Shown here: positions 5,597 through 27,918 of the stretch, one piece after another
Layout of the letters: every line of letters begins with the position of its first letter
How positions within the stretch are numbered: the first letter of the stretch is position 1
Origin: a virus
Reading direction: 5' to 3' (one strand)
IMG/VR virus record: IMGVR_UViG_3300046005_001260
Span: 1 to 28,088 of that record
DNA: 28,088 nucleotides
Program-made: the position numbers and the translations under genes
Notes under the pieces: generated by a model
Seen by the model: only the letters and a program-made list of their open reading frames with translations
Told to the model about the DNA's origin: nothing
Database searches by the model: none

Positions 5597-5977
5597 ATGA
5601 TTGAAATATTAAATAAAGATAATTTTATACTTTATTGTATGAAACATTATGATAATCCTCAATGTACTTCCATAAAGGAATTTGAAGAGGATTTGAATAG
5701 GGTTTTATATATTCAGAAATTATTGACAAGATATATTAATAATAAAGATGAATTAAGAGAACGATTGATATTAAACCATTTTATCGTTCTCTTTAATTTA
5801 TTTAATGATGCTACAGTAAATATATTGTTTTATAAAATAGATAACGAATATTGGAATATATTGGTTACATTCCTAATTTATTTAAATAGGATGCCGGATA
5901 CATTACCTCAATATGGTATTATCGCATCTGATTATTTACTTGATGATTATATTGTTTCAAACTTAAGGAAAATTTAA
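5597..5977 (+). CDS. Conserved T4-type phage protein of unknown function
   Basis: A 126-residue, mostly helical protein. The segment HYDNPQCTSIKEFEEDLNR followed by LTRYINNKDELRERLILNHF resembles a protein conserved in the structural neighbourhood of T4-type marine phages. No function is known to me. The start lies only 4 bases after the terminator's T-run; the sole Shine-Dalgarno-like sequence (AAGG) is inside the terminator loop. The stop codon overlaps the next ATG by one base, which suggests translational coupling with the following gene. Confidence 0.7.
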   Translation: MIEILNKDNFILYCMKHYDNPQCTSIKEFEEDLNRVLYIQKLLTRYINNKDELRERLILNHFIVLFNLFNDATVNILFYKIDNEYWNILVTFLIYLNRMPDTLPQYGIIASDYLLDDYIVSNLRKI

Positions 5978-7622: not shown

Positions 7623-7652
7623 AACCCTATTAAACTAAATAGGTAATTCATT

Positions 7653-7973
7653 ATGATTGATATAGATGTTAAGTACGCGAATTTAATAATCCCCCAATTA
7701 CAAAACGGTAAACAAAAATCTGAATTTGTTTGGAATTCAAGATGTTGTTTATGCGGTGATTCAAAAAAGAACCTCAAAAAAGCTCGATTATTCATCTATA
7801 AAAGATTTACAAGTCTATTTGTAAAATGTCACAATTGTCAATACAGTGGTTCACTTGGATCTTTTTTAGAAAAGGTTAATGCAGAATTGTATAAATTATA
7901 TGTTATAGAAAGATATAAAACTGGTAATGATAAATTACCCCATACAGATATAGCAAAGGTGTTAAATTTATGA
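7653..7973 (+). CDS. Stand-alone zinc-ribbon domain of T4 gp61-type primase
   Basis: A 106-residue protein containing C31-x2-C34 (RCCLCGDSKKN) and C59-x2-C62 (KCHNCQYSGS), separated by KKARLFIYK. This is the pattern of the N-terminal zinc-binding domain of T4-type primases, which recognises the template. The full primase has about 340 residues; here the protein stops after the zinc domain and no TOPRIM catalytic part follows. It may be a separate subunit of a split primase, with the catalytic part elsewhere in the genome, or a remnant that kept a nucleic-acid-binding role. It has its own promoter, and its stop codon overlaps the next start. Confidence 0.7.
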   Translation: MIDIDVKYANLIIPQLQNGKQKSEFVWNSRCCLCGDSKKNLKKARLFIYKRFTSLFVKCHNCQYSGSLGSFLEKVNAELYKLYVIERYKTGNDKLPHTDIAKVLNL

Positions 7974-8170
7974 GCCCAGAGGCATTAGAAATAATACAAA
8001 CAATAGGTGCATTCATTTTCGTATTAATAATTCTTTTTAGTATACGGATTATCGCCGTAGTTATAGGTTTTATTATTACTATGTTTGTAGGTGCAGGTTC
8101 TATTGTTATAGTTGTTGCTGGTATAGTTGCAATGATATATTTTGGGATACAGCATTTTATACCGGGATAA
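7970..8170 (+). CDS. Small membrane protein
   Basis: A 66-residue protein with two long hydrophobic segments (about 8-33 and 38-60), very rich in Ile, Val and Gly. It starts within ATGA overlapping the preceding stop, so it is translationally coupled to the zinc-ribbon gene. There is no recognisable family. It is presumably an inner-membrane protein made early in infection. Confidence 0.6.
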   Translation: MSPEALEIIQTIGAFIFVLIILFSIRIIAVVIGFIITMFVGAGSIVIVVAGIVAMIYFGIQHFIPG

Positions 8171-8186
8171 TTTAAAGGAGAAAATA

Positions 8187-9023
8187 ATGACGTGTGAAGT
8201 AAGAGTGATAGAGGATAGTTTAAATCCTCATAATAAAATAAGATTAACTACAATGCAATTAAAATATTGGAGAGGTATTCATGCGGAATTCATGACCCAC
8301 CGAGTATTTAGTCGCAATGCTTCTAGTTCTAGAGCAATACCTGTTTCAACATTTCTTAAACAAGTTTGGAATGATCCTGCGACACCTATTCATTGGGGTG
8401 CAAATCAACCAGGTATGAAAGCTCGTATTGAATTAACTGGATTCAAGAAATGGTTTGCTCAGTTTATGTGGAAAACTTCAGGACGTATAGTATGTTCTTT
8501 AGTATGGATAACTAATAAAGTTAGTAGTCCACATAAACAAGTATTCAACCGCTTGCTAGAACCATGGCAATATATATCTGTTATAGTAACATCTACTGAA
8601 TGGGATAATTTCTTTGAATTAAGAAATCATCCAGATGCCCAACCTGAAATACAAGAATTAGCGAGAGAAATGAAAAATGCAATGGACAATTCTACTCCTG
8701 CAGAACGGGTTTTTCACCTTCCTTATATTACTAATTCTGACTATATTGCTTTGGGACATGACAATACCACCGGAAGATTAATGGAAATATCTGCGGCAAG
8801 ATGTGCAAGAGTATCATATTTTACTCATGATAAACAGATACCTTCAATAGAAAAAGATTTAAAACTATTTAATGATCTTGTTGGATCAATACCATTACAT
8901 GCTTCTCCAACAGAACATCAAGCTTCCGCTGCAACAACTGATTCATTTAATAAGAATTTTAAAGGATGGATCCAACATAGAGTTACTGTAGAAGCTAACA
9001 TATATAATAAAGGAAATAAATAA
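8187..9023 (+). CDS. thyX: ThyX-like flavin-dependent thymidylate synthase
   Basis: A 278-residue protein. HRVFSRNASSSR at 38-49 corresponds to the ThyX signature RHRxxSxNxxSxR, which binds dUMP and FAD. HASPTEHQASAATTD and ISAARCARVSYF fit other conserved stretches of the family. ThyX makes dTMP from dUMP with methylene-folate and NADPH. The first Arg of the signature is Thr and the Glu after Asn is Ala, so this belongs to a divergent phage branch. A strong site (AAAGGAG) precedes ATG 8187; the frame is open upstream from a TTG at 8142, but that lies inside the previous gene. It is directly upstream of nrdB and nrdA, so the operon supplies dNTPs. Confidence 0.8.
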   Translation: MTCEVRVIEDSLNPHNKIRLTTMQLKYWRGIHAEFMTHRVFSRNASSSRAIPVSTFLKQVWNDPATPIHWGANQPGMKARIELTGFKKWFAQFMWKTSGRIVCSLVWITNKVSSPHKQVFNRLLEPWQYISVIVTSTEWDNFFELRNHPDAQPEIQELAREMKNAMDNSTPAERVFHLPYITNSDYIALGHDNTTGRLMEISAARCARVSYFTHDKQIPSIEKDLKLFNDLVGSIPLHASPTEHQASAATTDSFNKNFKGWIQHRVTVEANIYNKGNK

Positions 9024-10015
9024 TGTCGATAAGACTGTTAGAGAAAAAGTCTACATATACAATAGACTACCCAACTGCAATAGAATTCGCAAAACAACAA
9101 GCAGAAATATTTTGGTTACCGGATGAAATTGAAGTAGAAAAAGACTTGCATGATTTAAAGACTAATTTCACAGAAGCAGAATACCATGGTGTTATATCTA
9201 CCTTGAAATTGTTTACCATTTATGAATTATCAGTTGGTAATGATTATTGGCAGAATTATGTAGGTAAAATATTCCAAAGACCTGATATTCAAAGAATGGC
9301 TACAACCTTTGCATTTATGGAAATTGGAGTGCATGCTCCATTCTATAATAAGATTAATGAAATTCTAGGTTTAGATACTGATGAATTTTATAATGATTAT
9401 TTGAACGATGAAGTTTTAAAGAATAGAATGGAATGGATAGGGAAACGAGTAGAAAAAAGAGATTCTGTATATAATATTCTTAAGTCGATAGGTATCTTTT
9501 CAATGATTGAGGGTGCTATATTATACAGTTCATTTGCCTTTCTAAAACACTTCAATAATGTTGGCAAGAATAAACTTATAAACATTAATGCAGGTATTAA
9601 CTTTTCTGCTATAGATGAAACACTACATAGTCAGGCAGGTGCATGGTTATTTAGGACTCTATTGAAAGAAGCACTTGACGTTGGAGCTATATCAGAAGAA
9701 GCATTATTAGAATTAAGAACTGAACTTGAAGATACTACAAAAGTTATTCTCGAGCATGAAACAATTATTATAGATAAGATATTTGAAAAAGGACATATTA
9801 AAGGTATTACAGAAAATCAATTAAAAAACTTTGTTGAATCAAGACTAGATACATGTCTTAAAAATCTAGGGTATAAAATGATATTTAAACCGTCATATAA
9901 TCCTATAGCAGATTGGTTCTATCGTGATTTAGAATCAAGCACATTACACGATTTCTTTTCATCCACTGGCAATGATTATAATAGAGCATGGTCAGAAGGC
10001 AAATTCCAATGGTAA
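9023..10015 (+). CDS. nrdB: Ribonucleotide reductase class I, small (radical) subunit
   Basis: A 330-residue protein that generates the radical for NrdA and reduces NDPs to dNDPs with it. Candidate metal ligands are E68, E100, H104, the Glu in IEGAILYSS, and Glu/His in DETLHSQAG. The tyrosine at 108 (APFYNKINE) lines up with the radical Tyr122 of E. coli. The first histidine motif is E-x3-H instead of the usual E-x2-H. The end (AWSEGKFQW) resembles the tail that docks into NrdA. The length is typical. It overlaps the next small gene by 7 bases and sits in the thyX-nrdB-nrdA operon. Confidence 0.93.
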   Translation: MSIRLLEKKSTYTIDYPTAIEFAKQQAEIFWLPDEIEVEKDLHDLKTNFTEAEYHGVISTLKLFTIYELSVGNDYWQNYVGKIFQRPDIQRMATTFAFMEIGVHAPFYNKINEILGLDTDEFYNDYLNDEVLKNRMEWIGKRVEKRDSVYNILKSIGIFSMIEGAILYSSFAFLKHFNNVGKNKLININAGINFSAIDETLHSQAGAWLFRTLLKEALDVGAISEEALLELRTELEDTTKVILEHETIIIDKIFEKGHIKGITENQLKNFVESRLDTCLKNLGYKMIFKPSYNPIADWFYRDLESSTLHDFFSSTGNDYNRAWSEGKFQW

Positions 10016-11957: not shown

Positions 11958-12107
11958 ATGGCAACATCAAAAACATTTGAATGTAAATCATGTGAAACTG
12001 AAGGCAAAATAGTGATTATATCTAAAGATATAAGTTTAGAAGAAATTGTATATTGTCCAGTATGTGGAGCAGATATATTAGAAGACGACACGGATGACTA
12101 TTATTAA
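11958..12107 (+). CDS. Small zinc-ribbon protein
   Basis: A 49-residue protein with two CxxC knuckles, C9/C12 (FECKSCET) and C33/C36 (YCPVCGA), the spacing of a rubredoxin-like zinc ribbon, and an acidic tail (LEDDTDDYY). AAGGA lies upstream of the ATG. It overlaps the next start by one base (TAATG). Such mini zinc ribbons are frequent in T4-type phages; their targets are unknown. Confidence 0.7.
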   Translation: MATSKTFECKSCETEGKIVIISKDISLEEIVYCPVCGADILEDDTDDYY

Positions 12108-12550
12108 TGACTTGGTATTACAAGGATGTTGAGATAACTGAGTTACCTGATAATTGTATAGGTTTTGTATATTTAATAACTTGTATACCTTCAGGTCGTA
12201 AATATATAGGCAAGAAATCCGCTAAGTTTTCAAAAACAAAAACAAAAACTATTACTTTAAAGACCGGCGAAAAGAAAAAGAAGAAGATTAAATCAAAGGT
12301 AGATTCAGATTGGCTAGATTATTATGGATCTAGTATTGAACTATCTTTGGATGTATCTACATTAGGTCAAGATAAATTCAAACGCGAAATAATATATTTC
12401 TGCTCATCAAAAGCTGCATGTTCTTATTTAGAAGCAAAGGAACAAATTCTTCGCAATGTATTAGAATCAAATGATTATTATAATAATAATATAATGATTC
12501 GTGTGCATGGTAATCATATACGAGATAAAGTCCTTATTATTTCTCCCTAG
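12107..12550 (+). CDS. GIY-YIG-like nuclease-domain protein
   Basis: A 147-residue protein. GFVYLITCIPSGRKYIGKK (19-37) corresponds to the GIY-YIG motif, with VYL and YIG. A lysine-rich insert follows (about 41-64), then DWLDYYGSS, FKREIIYFCSS, and SYLEAKEQ with E109 as the candidate metal-binding glutamate. This matches a GIY-YIG protein conserved in T4-type phages rather than a typical homing endonuclease with a DNA-binding tail. It may be a free-standing nuclease; its position behind nrdA, a frequent homing site, leaves that option open. Confidence 0.7.
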   Translation: MTWYYKDVEITELPDNCIGFVYLITCIPSGRKYIGKKSAKFSKTKTKTITLKTGEKKKKKIKSKVDSDWLDYYGSSIELSLDVSTLGQDKFKREIIYFCSSKAACSYLEAKEQILRNVLESNDYYNNNIMIRVHGNHIRDKVLIISP

Positions 12551-12592
12551 GAAACAGTCTATTTCCTTATTGGTTAAAAATAAACGTTTACA
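12546..12592 (+). repeat. Upstream block of early promoter, copy 1
   Basis: A 47-base block starting CCTAGGAAACAGTCTATTTC and running into the -35 TTTACA. It recurs at 20672-20718 with 4 mismatches. AGGAAA/TTTCCT can form a small hairpin. The block lies just after a stop codon and just before the promoter module, so it may act as a weak terminator or as an operator. Confidence 0.7.
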
Positions 12593-12614
12593 ATAATGTA
12601 AACTAATATATAAT
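12587..12614 (+). promoter_or_regulatory. Early promoter module, copy 1
   Basis: TTTACA, 16 bases, TATAAT, preceded by TAAACGTTTA and followed by AGACTCATAAATTAAATAA and the GAGGAA ribosome-binding site before the ATG at 12652. This is the first of ten near-identical modules in the window. Confidence 0.88.
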
Positions 12615-12651
12615 AGACTCATAAATTAAATAAATGAGGAAATTATATATT

Positions 12652-16228: not shown

Positions 16229-16253
16229 AAGATAAAAAAAGTGAAAATAAATG

Positions 16254-16281
16254 TATACATTTCCTGAGAACGTGTTATAAT
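16254..16281 (+). promoter_or_regulatory. Early promoter module, copy 2 (divergent)
   Basis: TATACA, 16 bases, TATAAT; preceded by AGTGAAAATAAATG and followed by AAACTCATACATTAATTAAC and AAGGAAA before ATG 16318. The palindrome is degenerate here (AATGTATACAT). Confidence 0.85.
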
Positions 16282-16317
16282 AAACTCATACATTAATTAA
16301 CTAAGGAAAACTATATT

Positions 16318-16563
16318 ATGAGAACACAAAATTATGTAATGACATTAGATCCTAAATCTACCGTTGAAATGGCTCAATTAGCTTCTATTAGAGCCACAGT
16401 TAAAACTCTTAATAAGATTAATAAACAATCTTTTAGAGTATCTGTTAAAGGTAGATTAGGAAAGAATAATCCAGCGGCTGTTAAATATAAAAATATGGGT
16501 ATTGTTACTATAGCTTTAGCAGATGCTGTTCGTTGTGATATCTATATTCATAGAAGATCATAA
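16318..16563 (+). CDS. Small early protein of unknown function
   Basis: An 81-residue basic protein (MRTQNYVMTLDPKSTVEMAQ...) with a helical first half and a second half of short strands (SFRVSVKGRLGKNNPAAVKY, then VTIALADAVRCDIYIHRR). There is no recognised family; the basic, strand-rich end could bind nucleic acid (weak inference). It has its own early promoter and stands alone before the RNA genes. Confidence 0.65.
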   Translation: MRTQNYVMTLDPKSTVEMAQLASIRATVKTLNKINKQSFRVSVKGRLGKNNPAAVKYKNMGIVTIALADAVRCDIYIHRRS

Positions 16564-16577
16564 TAAATTTTATAAAT

Positions 16578-16652
16578 GCTCCCTAAGCATAAGTGGAGAT
16601 GCAGTTGACTTGTAATCATCATAAATCGGTTCGATTCCGGTAGGGAGCTCCA
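16578..16652 (+). tRNA. tRNA-Thr (anticodon UGU), CCA encoded
   Basis: 75 bases. Acceptor GCTCCCT/AGGGAGC is perfect. The D-arm is GCAT-AAGTGGAG-ATGC. The anticodon loop CTTGTAA gives UGU, on a stem GTTGA/TCATC with one T-T mismatch. The T-arm ATCGG-TTCGATT-CCGGT has one G-T pair. The discriminator is T and CCA is encoded. Confidence 0.9.
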
Positions 16653-16654
16653 AA

Positions 16655-16729
16655 TTATCACTATCTTCTAATGGTAGGATCCTGTACTAAAGATACGGGG
16701 AAAGGGTGTTCAACTCACTCTAGTGATAA
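16655..16729 (+). ncRNA. tRNA-like cloverleaf with long acceptor, no CCA
   Basis: TTATCACTA/TAGTGATAA is a perfect 9-base-pair outer stem. Inside are a D-like arm (TCTT-CTAATGGT-AGGA), an anticodon-like arm (CTGTA-CTAAAGA-TACGG, which would read AAA) and a normal T-arm (GGGTG-TTCAACT-CACTC). The outer stem is 2 base pairs too long, one base too many separates the D and anticodon arms, and no CCA is encoded, unlike all five tRNAs in the cluster. An AAA anticodon is almost unknown in bacteria. It is either a degenerate tRNA or a tRNA mimic. Confidence 0.65.
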
Positions 16730-16735
16730 CTTCAA

Positions 16736-16778
16736 TGCCGAAAGAAGTAGTGCTGCGGATTCGCAGTACAAGACGGCA
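16736..16778 (+). ncRNA. Strong two-stem hairpin
   Basis: An outer stem TGCCG/CGGCA encloses an 8-base-pair hairpin GTGCTGCG-GATT-CGCAGTAC (one G-T pair). There is no U-run of terminator type directly after the inner stem, though CTTTT follows the outer stem. It may be a processed stable RNA or an RNase landing structure. Confidence 0.55.
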
Positions 16779-16875
16779 CTTTTAATAAAACACATTAATC
16801 GAGTTTATATAAATTCGCTTACTCGTTAAGAATAGAGGCGACTAAAACTATTCTATAGTGTGTTTTATTAAAAGT
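16778..16875 (+). ncRNA. Three-way-junction RNA closed by 17-bp perfect stem
   Basis: ACTTTTAATAAAACACA (16778-16794) pairs perfectly with 16859-16875; three further pairs, one of them G-T, make 20. Inside are CGAGT/ACTCG (16800-16804 with 16821-16825) and AGAATAG/CTATTCT (16829-16835 with 16848-16854; 12-base loop). No ORF of note runs through it. I infer a stable noncoding RNA. Confidence 0.6.
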
Positions 16876-16948
16876 ATTTGGGTTGATTGTATCAATTAAC
16901 CTTTGCACACTTTAAGGTCACAGTGGACGATGTGTGTTGAAATACTTT
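16871..16948 (+). ncRNA. Second junction RNA overlapping the first
   Basis: AAAGTATTT/AAATACTTT (16871-16879 with 16940-16948) closes a domain with GGTTGATTG-TAT-CAATTAACC (9 pairs, one G-T; 16881-16901) and CACAC/GTGTG (16906-16910 with 16932-16936). Its first five bases are also the end of the preceding 17-base stem, so the two outer stems cannot both form fully. Confidence 0.55.
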
Positions 16949-16968
16949 AAAATAAGTGAAAATAAACG

Positions 16969-16996
16969 TTTACATTATCAGAAAAAGTGTTATAAT
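16969..16996 (+). promoter_or_regulatory. Early promoter module, copy 3
   Basis: TTTACA, 16 bases, TATAAT; preceded by AGTGAAAATAAACG (complete TAAACGTTTA palindrome) and followed by the standard leader and ATGAGGAAATAAA before ATG 17029. Confidence 0.9.
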
Positions 16997-17028
16997 AGAC
17001 TCATAAATTAAATAAATGAGGAAATAAA

Positions 17029-17235
17029 ATGATTAATGCTCCTGTTATAATGTACAAAATGCTTAGAGTTAAATTTAATGATAAGACTTATCGATTGACT
17101 GATAATGGTTATACTGGCATTTCTTTTGAAGTATATGATGATTATTCAGGTTGGTCTTCTTTGGATCAAGAAGAGCTTGAAGCTGAGTTTAATAATGAAG
17201 AAAGATATGCTATGGAAATGTTGTTTGACAAATAA
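17029..17235 (+). CDS. Small acidic early protein
   Basis: A 68-residue protein: a strand-rich first half (YKMLRVKFNDKTYRLTDNGY) and a very acidic second half (DQEELEAEFNNEERYAMEML). There is no recognised family. It has its own complete early module and is followed a few bases after its stop by the next promoter, so it is a single-gene unit lying inside the RNA region. Confidence 0.65.
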   Translation: MINAPVIMYKMLRVKFNDKTYRLTDNGYTGISFEVYDDYSGWSSLDQEELEAEFNNEERYAMEMLFDK

Positions 17236-17241
17236 TAAACG

Positions 17242-17270
17242 TATACTTTTAGTAATAAGTAGTTTATAAT
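17242..17270 (+). promoter_or_regulatory. Early promoter module, copy 4 (17-base spacer)
   Basis: TATACT, 17 bases, TATAAT; preceded by ATAAACG and followed by AACTCATAAATTAAATAAATAAGGAATATTA (given in parts across 17271-17303) before ATG 17306. It is the weakest -35 of the family and the only copy with a 17-base spacer. Confidence 0.8.
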
Positions 17271-17305
17271 AACTCATAAATTAAATAAATAAGGAATATT
17301 ATATT

Positions 17306-17470: not shown

Positions 17471-17492
17471 TTTATAAATTAAAGAATTAATC

Positions 17493-17581
17493 GGAGTAAT
17501 TACCCGAAAAGTAAGCACTGCCAATAGTAGAAGGCGAATCTACTGGAACAACGGTGGGGTAAGAGTCCCTAATTACGCTCC
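17493..17581 (+). ncRNA. Cloverleaf-like RNA with expanded anticodon-like arm
   Basis: An outer stem GGAG-TAATTA/TAATTA-(CG)-CTCC of 10 pairs has a 2-base bulge. Alternatively a D-like arm TTAC-CCGAAAA-GTAA forms. CACTG/CGGTG (17516-17520 with 17552-17556) encloses a further hairpin AGTAGA-AGGCGAA-TCTACT (17526-17544), where an anticodon loop would be. GGG-GTAAGAGT-CCC lies where a T-arm would be. It does not decode as a tRNA. Confidence 0.55.
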
Positions 17582-17590
17582 TAATTTTAG

Positions 17591-17705
17591 AAAAACATAT
17601 TTGACGGTTATTCTAGTGCAACTCAACGGCATGGGGATAATTGGTGGTGCTGACACACTGCGAAAAGTTTATTTGTCAGAATAAATGAATATTAAGTATG
17701 TTTTT
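17591..17705 (+). ncRNA. Structured RNA closed by AAAAACATA/TATGTTTTT
   Basis: An outer 9-pair stem (17591-17599 with 17697-17705) runs into a T-run, so its 3' side could also end transcription. The next stem TTATTCT/AGAATAA (17608-17614 with 17678-17684) and AGTG/CACT (17615-17618 with 17656-17659) enclose a G-rich centre. It contains no coding region that I can support. Confidence 0.5.
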
Positions 17706-18393: not shown

Positions 18394-18663
18394 ATGAGTG
18401 AAGTTACACCAATTAGAAAACAAGTATTGATTGCCCAAATAGCAAGAAAAACTGTATCAACCGGTGGTATTATTATTGAAGGCGCTAGATCGGTAGCTGA
18501 TAATGAAACAGGCAGAGTATTAGCAATTGGTTCAGAAGTTACTGAAGTTGCAGTTGGAGATGAAATATTATTAGATTGGTCTAAAGGTAATCCTGTTACT
18601 ATTAATGGTGAACAAAGAGTAATGATTAAAGAAGAATTCATTATTGCTGTATTAGACAGATAA
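18394..18663 (+). CDS. GroES-like co-chaperonin (T4 gp31 analogue)
   Basis: An 89-residue protein with the GroES fold pattern: IRKQVLIAQIARKTVSTGGI (7-26), including a mobile loop (ARKTVSTGG) that would dock into GroEL, then ETGRVLAIGSEVTEVAVGDE, and a C-terminal EEFIIAVLDR like the family ending that binds in the ring. T4 uses gp31 in place of GroES to fold its major capsid protein in the host GroEL chamber. The length (GroES is 97, gp31 is 111) suits a minimal phage co-chaperonin. AAGGAAAG precedes the ATG. It heads the unit with the methyltransferase and glycosyltransferase. Confidence 0.85.
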   Translation: MSEVTPIRKQVLIAQIARKTVSTGGIIIEGARSVADNETGRVLAIGSEVTEVAVGDEILLDWSKGNPVTINGEQRVMIKEEFIIAVLDR

Positions 18664-20189: not shown

Positions 20190-20319
20190 AAAATGTGTTT
20201 GCAAAGATACTCCTGCGGCAAAATTCCAAGATAAAGAATATGGTCAAGGAAACAGAGTTTGTAATGAAGACCAGAAGAAAGGTTATAAATGCACTGTTTG
20301 TGGAACTAATCATAAATAA
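20167..20319 (+). CDS. Small cysteine-rich (zinc) protein
   Basis: A 50-residue protein with Cys at 10, 12, 32, 42 and 45 (KKCVCKD, RVCNED, YKCTVCGTNHK) and QDKEYGQGNRV between, a pattern common in small phage zinc proteins. GAGG lies 7 bases before the ATG, inside the preceding gene. It ends directly before the next early promoter; its stop codon is within 5 bases of the -35 box. Confidence 0.68.
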   Translation: MASTAIIKKCVCKDTPAAKFQDKEYGQGNRVCNEDQKKGYKCTVCGTNHK

Positions 20320-20323
20320 AACG

Positions 20324-20351
20324 TTTACATTCCCTAAAACTATGATATAAT
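20324..20351 (+). promoter_or_regulatory. Early promoter module, copy 5
   Basis: TTTACA, 16 bases, TATAAT; preceded by AAAACG and followed by AGACTCATAAATTAATTATT and GAGGAA before ATG 20387. Confidence 0.9.
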
Positions 20352-20386
20352 AGACTCATAAATTAATTATTGAGGAATATTATATC

Positions 20387-20671: not shown

Positions 20672-20718
20672 CCTAGGAAACAGTCTATTTCATATTTGGT
20701 TAAAAATAAATGTTTACA
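20672..20718 (+). repeat. Upstream block of early promoter, copy 2
   Basis: 43 of 47 bases equal the block at 12546-12592, including CCTAGGAAACAGTCTATTTC and GGTTAAAAATAAA. In both places it sits between a stop codon and the -35 box of an early module. Confidence 0.7.
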
Positions 20719-20740
20719 TTTACAGAAGCCATGATATAAT
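20713..20740 (+). promoter_or_regulatory. Early promoter module, copy 6
   Basis: TTTACA, 16 bases, TATAAT; AAATG replaces AAACG in the palindrome, and the leader is AGATACATAAATTAAACTAA then GAGGAA, before ATG 20775. Confidence 0.9.
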
Positions 20741-20774
20741 AGATACATAAATTAAACTAATGAGGAATTATATT

Positions 20775-22036: not shown

Positions 22037-22213
22037 ATGCAAACCTATAGAGCACGGGATTTAACCAAAGGTCAAGTTATTTTAAAAAATAATGAACAAC
22101 TTGTTATTGATAGAGTTGATATATCTAATCGTGGTAATATTCTAGTTTGGGTTAATAACAAGATTAACCAAGTTATCCATTATGATCCAATGGATATTGT
22201 TATTTTAAAATAA
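22037..22213 (+). CDS. Small beta-rich protein
   Basis: A 58-residue protein consisting mainly of predicted strands (GQVILKNNEQLVIDRVDIS, then NILVWVNNKINQVIHY), ending DPMDIVILK. The layout suggests a small SH3/Tudor-like barrel, but this is a guess from the strand pattern. Its stop codon lies 3 bases before the -35 box of the next early promoter. Confidence 0.58.
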   Translation: MQTYRARDLTKGQVILKNNEQLVIDRVDISNRGNILVWVNNKINQVIHYDPMDIVILK

Positions 22214-22216
22214 ACG

Positions 22217-22244
22217 TTTACATTCTCAGAAACCATGATATAAT
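22217..22244 (+). promoter_or_regulatory. Early promoter module, copy 7
   Basis: TTTACA, 16 bases, TATAAT; complete palindrome TAAACGTTTA upstream and the standard leader with ATGAGGAA before ATG 22281. It is one of the copies closest to consensus. Confidence 0.92.
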
Positions 22245-22280
22245 AGACTCATAAATTAAATAAATGAGGAATATTATATC

Positions 22281-22674: not shown

Positions 22675-23462
22675 CTTTAATTGCTTACGGTTCGGATCTT
22701 CATTTAGAAATCAGAACCCTTGAAATTAACAATACAGAAGATGCTAAGGTATTAGTATTGGCTGGTGATATCTGTACTGTTACCGATTTAGATCCATTAA
22801 ACGATATTGGATACTTTAGAAGTCAGCGAATTCATAACTTCTTCAAGGATTGCTGCGATAAGTTCGAAAAAGTTATCTATATTATGGGTAACCACGAACA
22901 TTATCACCATCAGTTCTACGACACAATAGGTAGATTAAAGACAAATCTAGGTTATCTTCCTAATCTACATATACTTGATAGAGAAGCAATTACTATCGAT
23001 GGAACTACCTTTATCTGTGGAACTCTTTGGTCTGATATGAATAACGAAGACCCTGCTACTAAAGGATTTATGCTTATACGGATGAATGACTTTAGAATTA
23101 TTAAGAATGGAATGGTACGATTTAGTCCAAATGATGCTATAGTTGAACATCAGAGAATGGTTAAGTTTATTGATGATATAGTAGGTGAAGGAGATTATGT
23201 TGTAGTTGGTCATCATTCTCCTAGTTTTAGAAGTGTTTCAAAGGAATTTGAGAAAGACAAATTAATGAATGGTGGATTTCATTCTAATCTTGAGGAGTTC
23301 ATTACCAATAGACCTCAGATCAAGGTCTGGATCCATGGACACTGTCACTCCAATCACGACTATATGATTGGTGAAACTAGAGTTGTTTGTAATCCAAGAG
23401 GATATGCTGGTTATGAAGCAATTGCTGATACTTTTGAAATAAAATATATTAATTTAATATAA
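22671..23462 (+). CDS. Calcineurin-like metallophosphoesterase
   Basis: A 263-residue protein with the full dinuclear metal motif set: SDLHLE (D9, H11), AGDI (D33), GNHEHY (N74, H75), VVGHHSP (about 183-189) and HGHCHSNHDY near 228-237. Members hydrolyse phosphomono- or diesters, including nucleotides and nucleic acids. The substrate is not evident here. It resembles host-type proteins of about 260 residues that phages often carry. I chose ATG 22671 because it overlaps the preceding stop and gives the family's MxxxAYGSDLHLE start; the frame is open to 22614. Codon use is less AT-biased than its neighbours (more GAT/ATC alternation), which may point to later acquisition (weak). Confidence 0.85.
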   Translation: MTLIAYGSDLHLEIRTLEINNTEDAKVLVLAGDICTVTDLDPLNDIGYFRSQRIHNFFKDCCDKFEKVIYIMGNHEHYHHQFYDTIGRLKTNLGYLPNLHILDREAITIDGTTFICGTLWSDMNNEDPATKGFMLIRMNDFRIIKNGMVRFSPNDAIVEHQRMVKFIDDIVGEGDYVVVGHHSPSFRSVSKEFEKDKLMNGGFHSNLEEFITNRPQIKVWIHGHCHSNHDYMIGETRVVCNPRGYAGYEAIADTFEIKYINLI

Positions 23463-23465
23463 ACG

Positions 23466-23493
23466 TTTACATTCCCTGAAAACGTGTTATAAT
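23466..23493 (+). promoter_or_regulatory. Early promoter module, copy 8
   Basis: TTTACA, 16 bases, TATAAT; the palindrome TAAACGTTTA begins at the stop codon of the preceding gene. The leader is AGACCCATAAACTAATTAAT then GAGGAAAGTGAA before ATG 23527. Confidence 0.9.
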
Positions 23494-23526
23494 AGACCCA
23501 TAAACTAATTAATTGAGGAAAGTGAA

Positions 23527-25539: not shown

Positions 25540-25576
25540 TGATTGAAAAAAGATTTGGAAAAACTAAAATAAAACG

Positions 25577-25604
25577 TTTACATTTCCAGAAAATAGTGTA
25601 TAAT
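25577..25604 (+). promoter_or_regulatory. Early promoter module, copy 9
   Basis: TTTACA, 16 bases, TATAAT; preceded by AAAACG and followed by AGACTCATAAATTAAATAAA, then GAGAGA instead of GAGGAA, before ATG 25640. Confidence 0.9.
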
Positions 25605-25639
25605 AGACTCATAAATTAAATAAAGAGAGATTATATATT

Positions 25640-27819: not shown

Positions 27820-27854
27820 CATTTGAAAATAATTATTATTAGTGAAAATAAACG

Positions 27855-27882
27855 TTTACATTACCTAAAACTATGATATAAT
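27855..27882 (+). promoter_or_regulatory. Early promoter module, copy 10
   Basis: TTTACA, 16 bases, TATAAT; preceded by AGTGAAAATAAACG (as in copy 3) with complete palindrome, standard leader and ATGAGGAA before ATG 27919. Confidence 0.92.
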
Positions 27883-27918
27883 AGACTCATAAACTAAATA
27901 AATGAGGAATATTATATT

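Follow-up and report, generated by a model that had tools for sequence, protein, structure and literature searches.

A tRNA-like element (TLS) that occurs in a group of uncultured phages, and in a 28-kb IMG/VR virus fragment among them (28,088 nucleotides, the whole of which was analysed and is referred to here as the window), is best accounted for, with a probability that we put at just under 0.6, as a former tRNA-Glu(UUC) that has neither a CCA end nor a decoding role and has been kept as the tRNA-like 5′ part of a structured phage RNA built from modules. On this reading it is more likely to be a structural or processing piece than a translational tRNA. The observations behind it are the cloverleaf itself, the compensatory changes in its stems and the absence of an anticodon loop from most variants, together with its likeness to tRNA-Glu, the consistent order of the modules that follow and a direct junction with a separate conserved structured RNA (module A), a point that the first-pass annotation of this DNA had missed.

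The window carries genes for RNase H, NrdB and a SegE-like endonuclease, and its RNase H is closest to those of T4-type phages of Synechococcus, Pelagibacter and Methylophilales. The element is preceded by an 81-aa gene and then tRNA-Thr(UGU) (Table 1). Genes for a Cpn10-like co-chaperonin and a SegE-type GIY-YIG endonuclease were found at 18394–18663 and 12107–12550. A ~65-base repeat with boxes resembling TTTACA and TATAAT was present in ten copies (16959–17023, 22207–22271, 27838–27909, 23434–23521, 16233–16309, 25566–25624, 12577–12643, 20703–20770, 20314–20377 and 17234–17296), several of them directly before small genes, and these are probably repeated promoters.

Table 1. Positions in the window of the tRNA-like element, its parts and the adjoining features.
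Feature	Position	Strand	Basis
tRNA-Thr(UGU) with encoded CCA, directly upstream of the element	16578–16652	+	ARAGORN; Rfam 48.7 bits
tRNA-like element (TLS)	16655–16729	+	ARAGORN; Rfam tRNA 39.9 bits; six variants with compensatory changes
tRNA core of the TLS	16657–16728	+	Rfam tRNA model
Anticodon arm core of the TLS, CUGUA-CUAAAGA-UACG...	16683–16698	+	alignment of variants
Module A: pseudoknot ACUUC/GAAGU + UGCCG/CGGCA with a variable hairpin between	16729–16778	+	covariation, 12 sequences
Module B: long AT-rich hairpin (CUUUUAAUAAAACACAUU ... AGUGUGUUUUAUUAAAAG) with conserved core	16779–16875	+	fold z; core recurs in other contigs
Tail module: outer stem AAAGUAUUU/AAAUACUUU, hairpin GGUUGAUUG..CAAUUAACC, third stem	16870–16948	+	consensus fold

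The cloverleaf at 16655–16729 is genuine. ARAGORN called it as tRNA-Phe(aaa), at 16656–16730, and an Rfam search with laxer filters matched the tRNA family RF00005 to positions 16657–16728 with 39.9 bits (E 4.5e-7), above the gathering score of 29, where a low covariance score would have spoken against a tRNA fold. The default whole-window Rfam gathering search skipped the element, although its score exceeds that threshold. The first-pass annotation had described four arms, a T-loop TTCAACT, AAA at the anticodon position, no encoded CCA and a 9-bp acceptor stem, and all of these were borne out except the last, which holds only in part: the covariance model gives an ordinary acceptor of 7 bp (16657–16663 with 16721–16727, A73 being 16728), outside which two extra pairs can form, U-1:A73 (U16656:A16728) and U-2:A74 (U16655:A16729). 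The outermost of these A residues, A16729, may alternatively pair within the first helix of module A. The acceptor is followed by U8 C9, a D arm that has a single U:U mismatch, a 5-bp anticodon stem with the 7-nt loop CUAAAGA (A34 A35 A36), a short variable region and finally a T arm whose loop reads UUCAACU. At the 3′ end A73 is followed by ACU, whereas CCA is encoded by the window's five other tRNAs and by 29 of the 35 distinct tRNAs predicted across these clusters. The folding energy of the element was weak evidence (z = -1.99), and what speaks against chance is therefore the score from the tRNA model, together with conservation among the relatives.

For this comparison, viral contigs (IMG/VR phage) were searched with proteins and sequence patterns; the small group of relevant contigs so collected yielded six distinct variants of the element: that of the window (identical in L009 and L035), that of L010 (identical in L052), and those of L051, L165, L014 and L080. 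Two other matches to the element pattern, L166 and L167, had no cloverleaf and look protein-coding, and blastn of the element against the phage collection gave chance-level matches only. The stem was kept in the relatives: over the 20 pairs shared by the six variants, 98.3% of cells held standard pairs, compared with 40–45% in slid controls. Two pairs had changed on both sides, in the acceptor (8:68, U-A/C-G) and in the D stem (13:25, U-A/G-C), and a third, 6:70, occurred as A-U, G:U and G-C. The covariation score of the element was reached by 1 of 500 shuffles; coming from six related sequences, this covariation is supportive, not conclusive. The conservation of the stems, with compensatory changes, upholds the earlier remark that the arms are in better shape than simple random decay would leave them.

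The anticodon arm behaved differently from the stems. In four of the six variants (L051, L165, L014 and L080) its place was taken by a 3-bp mini-hairpin, for example CCU-GUAU-AGG or CCC-GUAU-GGG, that has no anticodon and itself stays paired through U:G, U-A and C-G, while the full 6-bp arm with its 7-nt loop was identical in the window, L010 and L052. The mini-hairpin variants went unreported by the Rfam tRNA model, both at E 0.5 for L014 and L165 and at E 1 for L080 and L051, and ARAGORN made no tRNA call for them in the L014- and L165-type contigs where it was run. Since the arm is replaced in four variants, which neither the Rfam model nor, where it was run, ARAGORN sees, the anticodon is not what this family conserves, and decoding through AAA would not, on this comparison, be its conserved feature. 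The window copy passes the gathering threshold of RF00005, but two traits of that family, a conserved anticodon loop and a CCA end, here encoded by most of the cluster mates, were absent from most of the variants and from all six, respectively. What defines a tRNA-like structure, a tRNA fold kept by selection without decoding, may apply here: in the few variants available the fold is kept with compensatory changes and the anticodon is mostly lost.

The likely source of the element was indicated by a covariance model built from it, which scored the tRNA-Glu(UUC) of L017 and L018 at 31.9 and 34.6 bits, and the window's other tRNAs at 13.8 bits or less. In L017 an intact tRNA-Glu with CCA (7623–7697) lies behind the same tRNA-Thr, in the position matching that of the element in the window. 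It has in common with the element the U8 C9, several acceptor positions and a D stem with U11-A24 and U13:G22, and differs in having a UUC anticodon and an encoded CCA. From these scores and the shared place, the element is most likely a derived tRNA-Glu(UUC). The suggestion that it was a tRNA with a meaningful A34 anticodon was not supported, given this likely source and the missing anticodon loop in most variants.

The main rival is that the element is a decaying pseudogene, a tRNA-Glu copy left from reshuffling of the cluster, on its way out and with no function of its own. The lack of CCA, the unusual anticodon and the deletion of the anticodon arm in four variants would all fit, as would the mosaic nature of the cluster and the tRNA remnants found in it, for example a cut tRNA-Thr in L051. 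That remnant (TGCTCCCTAAGCATAAGTGGC), just upstream of position 5816 on the minus strand, is fused to the start of the element and marks a visible deletion. However, nearly all stem changes keep pairing, the mini-hairpin stays paired through its substitutions, and the window and L010 elements differ at 3 of 75 positions, with no pair broken, against ~11% in the core genes. We therefore consider decay unlikely, while noting that with only six variants and a mosaic cluster, conservation of the element can be mimicked by recombination. The identity of the arm with the AAA loop in the window and L010, despite the divergence of the core genes, means that this arm may still matter in this lineage, although local recombination (97% identity just downstream of the element) can explain the unchanged arm too. 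This bears on a second and considerably less probable alternative, that in the window lineage the element is a live tRNA which receives its CCA after transcription and uses A34 to read UUU (Phe) or some other codon. It has a full cloverleaf above the Rfam cut-off and an arm and loop identical in the window, L010 and L052, and the window's genes use UUU often (30 per 1000 codons). Yet this codon is normally read by the host tRNA-Phe(GAA), the element is closest to tRNA-Glu and not to tRNA-Phe, most variants have no anticodon, CCA is not encoded as it is in the neighbours, and A73 can pair with U-1. Slightly less probable again is that the element is a decoy, a tRNA mimic with an altered or missing anticodon that would either keep the host's tRNA-cutting defence nucleases or tRNA-binding enzymes occupied or withstand them. 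Retention of the tRNA body with loss of the anticodon loop would suit such a role, and phage tRNAs are known to counter tRNA-cutting defence such as PARIS (PMC11455837), but the analysis indicated no nuclease target, and a free decoy would leave the fixed place upstream of module A unexplained.

That fixed place was seen throughout: module A lay downstream of the element in all six variants and directly adjoined it in five. In the sixth, L165, the two are separated by an insertion of ~640 bases (8010–8650) that reads as a reverse-strand gene with repeats and is possibly a homing endonuclease. Module A is a pseudoknot in which UGCCG, in the loop of the first helix, pairs with CGGCA downstream. 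Among 12 distinct sequences the first helix covaried at all four pairs counted, occurring as CUUC/GAAG, CAAG/CUUG, CUAG/CUAG, CAUC/GAUG and UGGC/GUCA, and the pseudoknot helix was nearly unvarying. The covariation score of module A was 0.370, compared with 0.130 for shuffled alignments, and none of 500 shuffles reached 0.370. Behind module A come hairpin modules (C, B, Bx or G) and then the tail, in a consistent order; the segment 16728–16960 folds with z = -5.96, and the pairs of the tail consensus fold, from eight sequences, are mostly unvarying. Two further modules, F and E, lie at 17492–17700 and recur in the tRNA clusters of relatives; like module B, they seem to end in AT-rich inverted sequences that close them. 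Searches elsewhere for modules A, B and the tail gave little: blastn of modules A, B and the tail against the phage collection found no convincing match, the exact module B core was absent from the genome contigs, and among the matches listed for an end pattern of module A most were unrelated coding sequence and were discarded.

Module A can do without the TLS: it stands after tRNA-Asn-CCA in L013, L015 and L137, and a different hairpin precedes it in L011 and L049. In L042 and L168 module A is preceded by other CCA-less tRNA-like units with short arms. The L042 unit (9249–9325; 42.4 bits) directly precedes module A and has a CGGU-AUAC-ACCG mini-hairpin in place of the anticodon arm, and L168 (7300–7440) has a tandem pair of degenerate units, both without CCA. 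By eye the latter look domain-swapped, since the 5′ acceptor half of the first could pair with the second unit's 3′ half, and the two inner halves with one another, an arrangement that is not the whole minimum-energy fold. It is tempting, at somewhat short of even odds, to see here a new modular phage RNA family in which tRNAs have repeatedly been turned into anticodon-less 5′ domains before a conserved pseudoknot, with interchangeable hairpins behind.

No Rfam family matched the modules in 16560–17030 (E up to 1) or in the six relatives searched (L165, L168 and L014 at E 0.5; L080, L051 and L042 at E 1), which set aside identity with GOLLD or ROOL, and ARAGORN reported no tmRNA in the window or the relatives scanned. 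GOLLD and ROOL are phage-encoded structured RNAs near tRNA islands whose function is not known (PMC12286853). The RNA described here is likewise phage-encoded, highly structured and close to a tRNA island, but it has shorter modules that are shuffled between tRNAs, and a degenerate tRNA-like unit where those RNAs have a real tRNA. Small stable non-coding RNAs, C and D, are also found inside the tRNA cluster of phage T4; by description they share with the present RNA the trait of being small RNAs within the tRNA cluster of a T4-type phage. A literature search gave nothing usable on RNAs C and D or on anticodon-less phage tRNA-like RNAs. Other tRNA-like structures are those at the 3′ ends of plant virus RNAs and the tRNA-like domain of tmRNA. 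As in these, the acceptor/T-arm stack is kept, the anticodon arm is reduced and pseudoknots are joined to it; unlike them, the element lies 5′ of its partner RNA, is not split and has no CCA. The description that probably suits it best is that of a tRNA-like structure whose structured-RNA context is new.

If the element is indeed the 5′ domain of such an RNA, the order would be TLS, module A pseudoknot, hairpin modules and tail. Host RNase P, and perhaps RNase Z, would recognise the acceptor/T-arm stack in the polycistronic tRNA transcript, so that the TLS would mark or make an end of the downstream RNA; it might also, or instead, have a structural part to play by stacking on the module A pseudoknot. 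In either case the AAA loop would be incidental, and the downstream RNA is assumed to have a non-coding role during infection.

The name tRNA-Phe(AAA) given by annotation tools would imply odd decoding; the comparison instead favours co-option of a tRNA as one component of a phage RNA that is so far undescribed. RNAs of the GOLLD and ROOL kind are often encoded close to tRNA islands, and no role is known for them. A family in which the steps between an intact tRNA and an anticodon-less domain can still be seen would reveal the origin of such RNAs and would supply short, testable constructs.
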